From assembly GCF_000470655.1 (NCBI RefSeq), contig NC_021921.1, forward strand, positions 744,001 through 808,000: DNA of 64,000 nucleotides. The letters are read 5' to 3'. The position numbers were made by a program, and so were the translations under genes. Positions 59,921-62,580 of this stretch are shown here, piece by piece. Source of the DNA: Halorhabdus tiamatea SARL4B (GTDB taxonomy: Archaea > Halobacteriota > Halobacteria > Halobacteriales > Haloarculaceae). The stretch's first letter is position 1. Every line of letters begins with the position of its first letter. Below the pieces are notes generated by a model, which was not told the origin of the DNA, made no database searches, and was given only the letters and a program-made list of their open reading frames with translations.

Positions 59921-62194
59921 ATGACAGACGACTCACGGCTCAGTGGCAATCGACGCACGTTTCTGAAATGGCTCGGCGCGACGGGGGTTGCGGCGGGGAG
60001 TGGGACGGCGGCGCTCGGTCCGGCCGCCGCCGACGACCACGTCGGCGAGTACCGACAGACGTTGCTCGCCGACCTCGAGTCGGCTCGGGGCCTCCCTGCC
60101 GGTTCGTTCGTCTACGGGACGAGCGAGCAGGCAGCCCTCGACGCGTTCACCTTCGAGGACGCGGGGGCAGGCACGTCTTCGACCTTCGAGGTGGACGCCG
60201 ACGTGCCGATCACGCAGGGCGTCACGCTCACGGTGAACGAGGAGCCCTCGAACGCCTACGACTACACGTATCAAGGATTCATTTCGGACACGTCGTTTAG
60301 CGCGGGCGATCCGCTGCTCGCGGTCGCGTACGTCCGCAGCGACACCGAGGAGGCCCAGATCCAGGCTGGGTTCAAATACCAATATACGGACCCCAACGGA
60401 GAGACGAGTTACAGTTCCAACACGGTTCAGGAGTCGGCCTCGGTCACACCTAGTGCGGAGTGGACCCGGTATTACTTCCCGATCGAAGTCGCCGAGAAAC
60501 CCGACGGCTCGGAGCACACGCCGTATCTAGAGTTCTGGACGGGCTACGCCGAGCAGACCGTCGAGATGGGCGGCGTCGCGCTACTCGATTACGGCGACGC
60601 CGACGTCGCCGTCGGTGACCTCCCGGCCGGCCCGGCAGGAGCTCAAGAAGGGGACAGCCCCACGAATCCACTCGTCAATTACGAGGGGCGAGAGGAGGGT
60701 GCACAGTGGCGTGAAGACGCCCGCGATCGGATCGAGGAGGTCCGCAAGACGGACTTCGAGGTCGAAGTCCTCGACGAGGCCGGCAACGCCGTCGAGGGTG
60801 CCGACGTCGAGGTCGCGATGCAGGATCACGCCTTCGACTTCGGGAGTGCCGTGTCGGTCACGCACATCACGGGTGACAGCGAGGACGACCAGCGGTACCG
60901 CGAGGTGTTCCTCGAGCACTTCAACAAGGCGGTCATCGAGAACGGACTGAAGTATCCGTCTTTCACTGGTGCCTGGGGCGACAGCAAGGCGGGGGCGATA
61001 GACACACTGGAGTGGCTCGACGACAAGAACATCCCCGCACGCGGGCACTACCTCCTCTGGGAGGAATATAATACGGACGGCGGCGGCGGGATGGGCATCG
61101 ACAACCCGGACGCGCTGTCGGCCAGCGAGACCGTCGAGCGTGTCGACCAGCGGATCGAGAACCAGGCCACCGACGTCGGTGACCTCGTCACCGAGTGGGA
61201 CATGCACAACCACCCGATCTGGCAGCCGAACTTCCGGAGCGACGACGCCATCGGCTTCGAGGCTGTCGAGCAGTGGTGGGGGACCGCCGACGCGGCGACC
61301 GACGCCGAACTCTACACCAACGAGATGGGCAACGTCGCCGGCGGGTTCTTCCGCGATCAACACGACGAGTTCGTCGGTCAGTTGATCGAGAACGACCTGC
61401 CGATCGACGGGGTCGGGTTCATGGGCCACGTCCAGTTGCCCGAAGGCAACGTGACGCCACCGGCAGAGATCCTCGAAACCTACGACCAGTTCGCCGAACA
61501 CGACCTCCCGATCCTCATCACCGAGTTCGACATCCAGATCAACGACCGGGGCAACGACGAGGAGGTCGCCTTCCAGGAGGATCTCACGCGCGACTTCCTG
61601 ATTGCGTCCTTCAGCCACGAGGCCGTCGAGGGCGTGATGTCCTGGGGCTTCTGGGCCGGCGATCACTGGCGACCCACCGGTGCCTACTACGACGAGGACT
61701 GGACGTTGCGTCCCAACGGCCAGCAGTTCATGGACCTGGTCTTCGACGAATGGTGGACCGAAGAATCCAGCAGTACGGACGCCGACGGCGTCTACGCCAC
61801 GACCGGCTTCAAGGGTACCTACCAGATCACCGCAAGCGACGGCGAAGCGAGCACCGAGCGGCAGGTCCAGATCAGCGACGACACCGACGCCGTAACCGTT
61901 ACGCTCAGCGAGAGTGACGCTGGAGAAGGCGAAGACGATGGAGCGGACGGCGGCGAGGAGACGCCGGAAGGGACGTTACCCGGCGGTCAGGGACCGCCCC
62001 AGGACCTCGACGGCGACGGCCACTTCGAGGACGTCAACGGCGACGGCAAGCGGAACATCGCGGACGTCCGGTCGCTGTTGAACAACCGCAACGGTGACAC
62101 GGTCCAGGCCAACGCCGGTGCGTACGACTTCGACGGCGACGGCAGCGTCGACGCCGGCGACGTGCTCGCGCTGTTCCGGAAACTCTACAGATAA
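59921..62194 (+). CDS. Tat-exported GH10-type xylanase with dockerin-like tail
   Basis: 757 residues. Tat signal NRRTFLKWLG (10-19) with cleavage near AAAD (about 37). An N-terminal beta domain (about 60-235, carbohydrate-binding-like) precedes the GH10 barrel (about 265-610): RGHYLLWEE, EWDMHNHPIW and ILITEFDIQIND. The nucleophile Glu is E535. The acid/base position reads His431 (codon 61211-61213) instead of Glu. The tail holds two dockerin-like calcium repeats, DVNGDGKRNIADVRSLL and DFDGDGSVDAGDVLALF (about 695-757). Start at 59921 is fixed by the Tat motif and box A. Secreted polysaccharide hydrolase or binding protein. Confidence 0.88.
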   Translation: MTDDSRLSGNRRTFLKWLGATGVAAGSGTAALGPAAADDHVGEYRQTLLADLESARGLPAGSFVYGTSEQAALDAFTFEDAGAGTSSTFEVDADVPITQGVTLTVNEEPSNAYDYTYQGFISDTSFSAGDPLLAVAYVRSDTEEAQIQAGFKYQYTDPNGETSYSSNTVQESASVTPSAEWTRYYFPIEVAEKPDGSEHTPYLEFWTGYAEQTVEMGGVALLDYGDADVAVGDLPAGPAGAQEGDSPTNPLVNYEGREEGAQWREDARDRIEEVRKTDFEVEVLDEAGNAVEGADVEVAMQDHAFDFGSAVSVTHITGDSEDDQRYREVFLEHFNKAVIENGLKYPSFTGAWGDSKAGAIDTLEWLDDKNIPARGHYLLWEEYNTDGGGGMGIDNPDALSASETVERVDQRIENQATDVGDLVTEWDMHNHPIWQPNFRSDDAIGFEAVEQWWGTADAATDAELYTNEMGNVAGGFFRDQHDEFVGQLIENDLPIDGVGFMGHVQLPEGNVTPPAEILETYDQFAEHDLPILITEFDIQINDRGNDEEVAFQEDLTRDFLIASFSHEAVEGVMSWGFWAGDHWRPTGAYYDEDWTLRPNGQQFMDLVFDEWWTEESSSTDADGVYATTGFKGTYQITASDGEASTERQVQISDDTDAVTVTLSESDAGEGEDDGADGGEETPEGTLPGGQGPPQDLDGDGHFEDVNGDGKRNIADVRSLLNNRNGDTVQANAGAYDFDGDGSVDAGDVLALFRKLYR

Positions 62195-62205
62195 GCAAGG
62201 CGAGT

Positions 62206-62336
62206 GCCTCGGGGTCGTACGGAAATCCGATTTCCGGATGCGCGTGGGACGAAGTCCCACGAACCTGCGAACGGCGCAAGCGCCGTGAGCAGATGACGAG
62301 ACGCTTCCGGCGTCTCGAACCACGTGACCCCGAGGC
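62206..62336 (+). ncRNA. Structured element: 11-bp helix enclosing four perfect hairpins
   Basis: GCCTCGGGGTC (62206-62216) pairs perfectly with GACCCCGAGGC (62326-62336). Inside are four consecutive hairpins: 62220-62236 (CGGAAATC/GATTTCCG), 62243-62261 (CGTGGGAC, GAA loop), 62271-62286 (ACGGCGC, AA), and 62297-62317 (CGAGACGC, TTCCG loop). It starts 12 nt after the GH10 stop, so it may be a 3' UTR fold, an independent small RNA, or a transposon-end remnant. The bases after the helix read GGTTCAC. Confidence 0.7.
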
Positions 62337-62343
62337 GGTTCAC

Positions 62344-62580
62344 CAGTAGCGCCGCAGCTCTCACGCAGTTCGGGGATCTGAATTCTCGACCTCACGAAGA
62401 TCTGGAAGGTGCGAAAACCCAGCAGCGAGGCGAATGTCATTTCCCCATATAATATTTTTATTTGACGTAATGCGTGCGGTGCCCAGTTGCAGGACAGCAG
62501 TCCCACGGCCTGTGACCGGTTGAACGTTCACCCAAAACACTAAGGTAAATCATGTCGAACTGTTCACGTGCTACGCACAG
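62344..62580. promoter_or_regulatory. Gap and promoter region before the second GH10 gene
   Basis: Between the structured element and the ATG at 62581. An AT-rich stretch (CATATAATATTTTTATTTG, about 62446-62464) and AAGGTAAAT (62542-62550, about 31 nt before the ATG) are box A candidates; the second fits a leaderless start. No ORF. Confidence 0.45.

Follow-up and report, generated by a model that had tools for sequence, protein, structure and literature searches.

The window, a 64,000-nucleotide stretch of the Halorhabdus tiamatea SARL4B genome, contains near its right end two tandem genes for related GH10-type secreted proteins (59921-62194, and 62581 to past the window end). In DNA, the 3' ends that encode their dockerins share 92% identity, and dockerin-type 3' ends akin to those of this pair recur many times in the same genome. 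The end of the first gene and the adjacent intergenic DNA hold a compact array of hairpins, which is divided here into the following features.

59921-62194 (+): host gene, GH10 with a C-terminal dockerin (Pfam GH10, E 8.3e-26; Dockerin_1, E 1.3e-7)
62184-62188 (+): target pentanucleotide TCTAC, abutting the PATE on its left, within the last GH10/dockerin codons
62189-62343 (+): whole PATE as delimited by comparison with solo copies, tnpA/tnpB elements and the empty site; 155 bp with inserts, 47 bp without
62189-62206 (+): PATE left end AGATAAGCAAGGCGAGTG, also present in tnpA/tnpB elements and, as AGATGAGCAAGGCGAGTG, in the bare copy L208
62207-62214 (+): left arm (CCTCGGGG) of the terminal palindrome of the transposon, a palindrome that occurs bare in relatives
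62215-62240 (+): left half of unit AD with hairpin A (62220-62236), aligned to AD copies and matched by model R2
62241-62293 (+): unit BC with hairpins B (62243-62261) and C (62266-62291), matched by model R3 (C2:806241-806293); a lone unit elsewhere
62294-62322 (+): right half of unit AD with hairpin D (62297-62317), aligned to AD copies
62323-62335 (+): right arm (CCCCGAGG) of the palindrome, preceded by what is left of its loop, CGTGA here and CTTGA in the family, from comparison with bare palindromes
62336-62343 (+): PATE right-end tail CGGTTCAC, also present after the tnpB elements L010/L098 and L097 and, as CAGTTCAC, in L055
62344-62363 (+): right flank (CAGTAGCGCC...), with the gene's original Gln and stop codons; the joined flanks align to homologues

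The first-pass annotation had described positions 62206-62336 as four perfect hairpins enclosed by a perfect 11-bp helix, a compound fold held to be very unlikely by chance. The helix is found exactly as described, with GCCTCGGGGTC at 62206-62216 pairing throughout with GACCCCGAGGC at 62326-62336. All four hairpins are also present, although hairpin C contains an internal loop, and the minimum free energy pairing of hairpin A differs from the family consensus because a few bases have been lost in the window copy. The predicted minimum free energy of the 151 nt at 62196-62346 is -85.1 kcal/mol, compared to a mean of -56.2 for shuffled sequences (z -6.99), and none of 200 shuffles was as low; the fold is real. 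The complement of this segment folds equally stably (z -6.97), and this likeness of the two strands hints at DNA palindromes rather than at an RNA that prefers one strand. There was no match to Rfam over the element at gathering or relaxed thresholds, nor at E up to 10 across 62150-62400, but this is a weak test, which also missed the tnpB-linked right ends of L010, L054 and L055. No match to the window element was identified in the phage collection.

Fused transposon ends in the GH10 gene

The annotation had proposed a search for copies in other haloarchaea. Near-full-length copies with 82-91% identity were identified in the same genus and family, while partial copies (query positions 1-45 and 97-148) are very widespread. 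Matches were also found in 44 plasmid records, mostly partial, and the named plasmids are haloarchaeal. The solo copies have a common left border, TCTAC followed by AGGCGGAGCAGGCCGAGTG, which in the window is TCTAC followed by AGATAAGCAAGGCGAGTG (62184-62206), and a common right border, GAGGCGGTTCAC, which in the window ends at 62343. The pentanucleotide TCTAC directly precedes 25 of the 34 left-end matches collected, and several of the others are these sites again, offset in register. The extent first assigned, 62206-62336, is thus correct for the helix but too narrow for the element, the borders of which lie at 62189 and 62343. The termini of the element, AGATAAGC... on the left and ...GGTTCAC on the right, do not form an inverted repeat. 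The list of open reading frames contains no transposase within the 155 bp, which is too short to encode one.

The same borders and palindrome also flank tnpA/tnpB genes in L097 and L055. In the element of G040, the order is the left end, tnpA on the opposite strand and broken by an AD unit, tnpB, and the same right end; the TnpB assignment was confirmed by Pfam (TNB domain, E 3.6e-16). A related element with matching ends in the genome of H. tiamatea itself contains a full-length open reading frame for a Y1 TnpA (C2:2183243-2183602; E 6.5e-40). The bare palindrome CTCGGGGCTTGACCCCGAG (CTCGGGG-CTTGA-CCCCGAG, with at most one mismatch) is present in 56 of 97 relatives, while a reversed control pattern had no match in these 97. 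Excision of 62215-62322 from the window element leaves 47 bp, or 52 bp including the target, and L208 represents a PATE of this type without inserts, CTACAGATGAGCAAGGCGAGTG-CCTCGGGG-CTTGACCCCGAGG-CGGTTCAC. Since left-end sequence (62189-62206) precedes the helix and a right end of the tnpB type closes it, both ends are fused at a shared palindrome. Judged by these comparisons, the window element is a terminal-only PATE, composed of the fused ends of a haloarchaeal IS200/IS605 tnpA/tnpB transposon. The earlier suggestion of an IS200/IS605 end that has lost its genes was therefore essentially right, and the end GCCTCGGGG...CCCCGAGGCGGTTCAC does follow tnpB in relatives; it was incomplete in that both ends are present in fused form and the four hairpins are two inserted units, one within the other.

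Terminal-only PATEs in Haloquadratum walsbyi are 52 bp with the target counted in, and have been described as a left and a right end fused at the palindrome (PMC3119063). The window element resembles them in the lack of a transposase gene and of terminal inverted repeats, in the near-terminal palindrome of the IS605 type, in the conserved targeting oligonucleotide without target duplication, and in its length, which without the inserts is 52 bp including the target. It differs in that it is found in Halorhabdus and contains 108 bp of nested hairpin units in the palindrome. With the haloarchaeal IS200/IS605 elements (IS1341-type) it shares its two ends, its target and the terminal palindrome, but unlike those with tnpA/tnpB it is free of genes and has both ends in a single palindrome. 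The fusion could have arisen by recombination, as proposed for Haloquadratum, or through transposition of an already fused form.

The insertion can be placed to the base within the GH10 gene. When the flanks are joined at 62188/62344 (AAACTCTAC/CAGTAGCGCC), their alignment with GH10/dockerin-type genes in relatives continues across the junction. Uninterrupted sites read CTCTAC/CAGTAACG (L093), CTCTAC/CGGTAG (L092) and CTCTAC/CGGTAA (L094), and the tandem downstream gene is also uninterrupted, with TTCTAC/CGGTAA (L091); the empty sites are thus homologous genes of relatives and a tandem paralogue, with identities of 74-92%. In the homologues without the element, CTAC is followed at once by CAGTA or CGGTA, with no target duplication. 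These genes indicate that the PATE inserted after the TAC codon and before CAG, with no duplication, and the allele before insertion would read ...AAACTCTACCAGTAGCGCC.... The PATE now houses the last codon of the gene and its stop codon (TAA at 62192-62194), and AGA TAA replaces CAG TAG (Gln-stop to Arg-stop), so that only the last residue of the protein is altered.

The uninterrupted homologues also bear on whether the fold could serve the GH10 gene as a conserved device of the 3' UTR, be it a stabiliser, a terminator or a regulatory RNA. The helix starts 12 nt past the stop codon and the fold is very stable, as would be expected of such a device, but GH10/dockerin homologues lack the element at this site, other copies are found in unrelated contexts, and the opposite strand is equally stable. 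Such a role is extremely improbable, and the stabiliser suggested at first can be set aside, while an incidental effect of the element on the GH10 mRNA is possible. Nor does the placement of the copies, as read from the genomes compared, lend support to the small RNA that had also been suggested.

Another candidate is a functional solo TnpB guide RNA, in which a read-through transcript of the GH10 gene would direct a TnpB produced from another locus to the allele without the insertion (TCTAC followed by CAGTAGCGCC...). The right end is that of tnpB elements, the flank at 62344-62363 would take the guide position if a TnpB RNA were made, many TnpB genes are present in the same genome, and in L098 the four-hairpin end does follow tnpB. 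The succession of a right-end hairpin and a guide position is shared with the TnpB omega-RNAs and the haloarchaeal sotRNAs, which are represented in Rfam by RF02656/RF02657 (PMC12558985). However, omega-RNAs of haloarchaea overlap with the 3' portion of tnpB (PMC12558985). In the window element this tnpB-derived 5' segment of the RNA is absent, its place being taken by left-end sequence and the GH10 gene. The missing tnpB-derived part rules out the solo guide RNA as the main reading, and the lack of an Rfam match, for what that weak test is worth, points the same way. We consider a guide function very unlikely.

Two hairpin units within the terminal palindrome

The four hairpins can be sorted into two units, each of which is found in other places. 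Unit AD is a two-hairpin unit of about 54 bp (copies 53-64 bp), and its ends, TCGTTCGA...TCGAACGA, are inverted repeats in the least diverged copies. In the filled palindromes, TCGT...AACCA is placed between GGGG and CTTGA. AD splits tnpA in L097, where L055 has an intact tnpA, and it splits tnpB in L055 and L098, where L097 and L021 have an intact tnpB; none of the insertions in tnpA, tnpB or the right ends is accompanied by a target duplication. AD is also found at many unrelated genomic places. Among 92 sites with distinct flanks, a G precedes the unit in 89 and a C follows it in 89 (G^C). A covariance model identified AD in 50 of 53 sampled genomes of the Halobacteriales, and only four weak matches outside that order. 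The genome of H. tiamatea contains 11 AD places at E < 1e-8, besides the split copy in the window.

Unit BC is a two-hairpin unit (AGCG...GAGCAGA) of about 53 bp (copies 52-61 bp), with borders that are certain to 1-2 nt and ends that are not inverted repeats. It occurs alone in other genomes, and in L148 it lies within tnpB (GTGCGCTTGAA/TAGCG...GCAGA/TCGCGGG), the homologue of which is intact in L034; this insertion is exact to 1 nt and has no target duplication. In the composite of about 108 bp, BC is placed at the centre of AD (CCGTGA^TGACGAG). Three related tnpB elements show the successive states at their right ends, which are empty in L097, contain AD in L055, and contain AD and BC in L098. 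The solo PATE copies collected comprise 11 with AD and BC, 7 with AD and 1 empty, a sample that the query biases towards the composite. Among the 97 relatives, inserts of 95-125 bp in the palindrome were the AD and BC composite only, apart from two neighbouring ends in G056.

Base-exact interruptions of tnpA and tnpB, together with intact homologues, indicate that AD and BC are independent inserts. The reverse history, in which the hairpins were original to the transposon ends and palindromes became bare when slippage between their arms removed the loop, has to be weighed here. Palindromes are prone to deletion, and filled and empty ends do coexist. Yet AD and BC interrupt the coding sequence of tnpA and tnpB, where the intact form must be ancestral, they are also found far from any transposon end, and deletion would have to be base-exact every time, all of which makes this history highly unlikely.

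Covariation of the stems, which had been proposed as a check, was detected in the arms of both units, with scores that no shuffle reached. For AD, all 336 of 336 pair cells are standard, with double changes at 10 of 16 pairs (61 cells) and a single G-U cell, and for BC 99.3% of the cells pair, with double changes in 24. The signal comes mostly from hairpins A and B, whereas the bases near the junction in C and D are largely invariant. The near-absence of G-U intermediates seems easier to reconcile with palindromes maintained as DNA than with selection acting on an RNA.

The sequence comparisons thus support, with a probability of about 0.88, a three-level nest in which a PATE lies in the GH10/dockerin gene, AD in the loop of its palindrome, and BC in the centre of AD. 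The five-way junction is, in this reconstruction, a Russian-doll insertion rather than one conserved RNA of the GH10 gene. A transposase-free derivative of an IS200/IS605 element, with its ends fused through the near-identical terminal palindrome, would have entered after TCTAC; AD would have been placed in the loop of the terminal palindrome, and BC in the centre of AD. A TnpA of the Y1/HUH type, acting in trans, is predicted to move the PATE as single-stranded DNA by means of the end hairpin. As solo copies of the four-hairpin composite are found in several relatives, the whole probably moves as a single PATE, and the solo copies with AD and BC or with AD suggest that extra hairpins in the loop are tolerated.

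Relation to known repeats

PATEs are already known, while the nesting of hairpin units within one another is new. In the literature on short hairpin repeats in haloarchaea, the one directly relevant study identified (PMC3119063) described the small mobile repeats SMR-A (HqIRS42, HqIRS43 and HqIRS55), of about 110 bp, called their movement enigmatic in 2011, and suggested that they put IS605 elements out of action. The finding of AD within tnpA and tnpB is compatible with that idea, without being proof of it. AD and BC resemble the Haloquadratum repeats, to which they are likened by description: they are short and transposase-free, cause no target duplication and sit within the near-terminal palindromes of PATEs and IS605-type elements, and the ends of AD are inverted in its least diverged copies. 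They differ in their length of 52-64 bp, only the composite of about 108 bp being comparable to SMR-A, in that they are also found outside such palindromes, and in that one unit lies inside the other.

A bacterial analogy is provided by the REP/BIME repeats with RAYT, which are short hairpin units. AD is similar to these in its arrangement of two mutually inverted hairpins with a short centre, but AD and BC enter genes and other palindromes. That AD and BC represent a large and so far undescribed class of two-hairpin units in the Halobacteriales, ultrashort at about 54 bp, is a tentative proposal that we regard as somewhat doubtful. Such units would insert base-exactly and without target duplication, with the centres of one another and the palindromes of transposon ends among their sites, through a mechanism tied to no known transposase. 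If it is true, repeated nesting would generate long multi-hairpin structures that mimic structured RNAs.

With the nest resolved, what looked like one structured RNA becomes three distinct insertions of DNA for which empty sites are known. Two hairpin units now have consensus sequences and covariance models, and one of them, AD, is present in nearly all Halobacteriales sampled. The G^C rule, the exact pairs of filled and empty sites and the nesting make the movement of small mobile repeats directly testable. The case also calls for caution, as very stable, covarying folds in intergenic DNA of haloarchaea can be palindromic mobile DNA and not functional RNA.

A few further observations concern the distribution of the units. 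A general preference of AD for palindrome loops is not claimed: flanking stems of at least 6 bp were seen in 17% of cases compared to 6% with flanks shuffled, in a set of 42 collapsed sites that excludes the main transposon-end class but still includes some transposon-end copies. AD was found in transposon-end palindromes at 28 of the 92 sites, a proportion biased upwards as the sampling began from transposon-end copies. In the L055 element of H. tiamatea (C2:2179602-2186180), the AD-type unit at about 2192-2245 lies near the 3' end of tnpB and removes the C-terminal tail past the TNB domain; a unit is similarly placed in L098, the relative of this tnpB in G001. A second recurrent context of AD, ...GCTCGCTG/AD/CGCTCCTC..., was seen in several genomes of one family (L268, L271, L274, L276, L278, L280, L282, L286-L288, L302, L303 and L320) and may be another repeat family. 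In L153, L161, L162 and L164, at least five hairpins follow one another in long arrays of AD-like and BC-like units and further hairpins, which suggests repeated nesting or concatenation. Finally, the genome of H. tiamatea contains more BC-type units at C2:645602, 714793, 717598, 717670, 1531023, 2764146 and 2764299, among which 717598 and 717670 are adjacent and 2764146 and 2764299 form another close pair.
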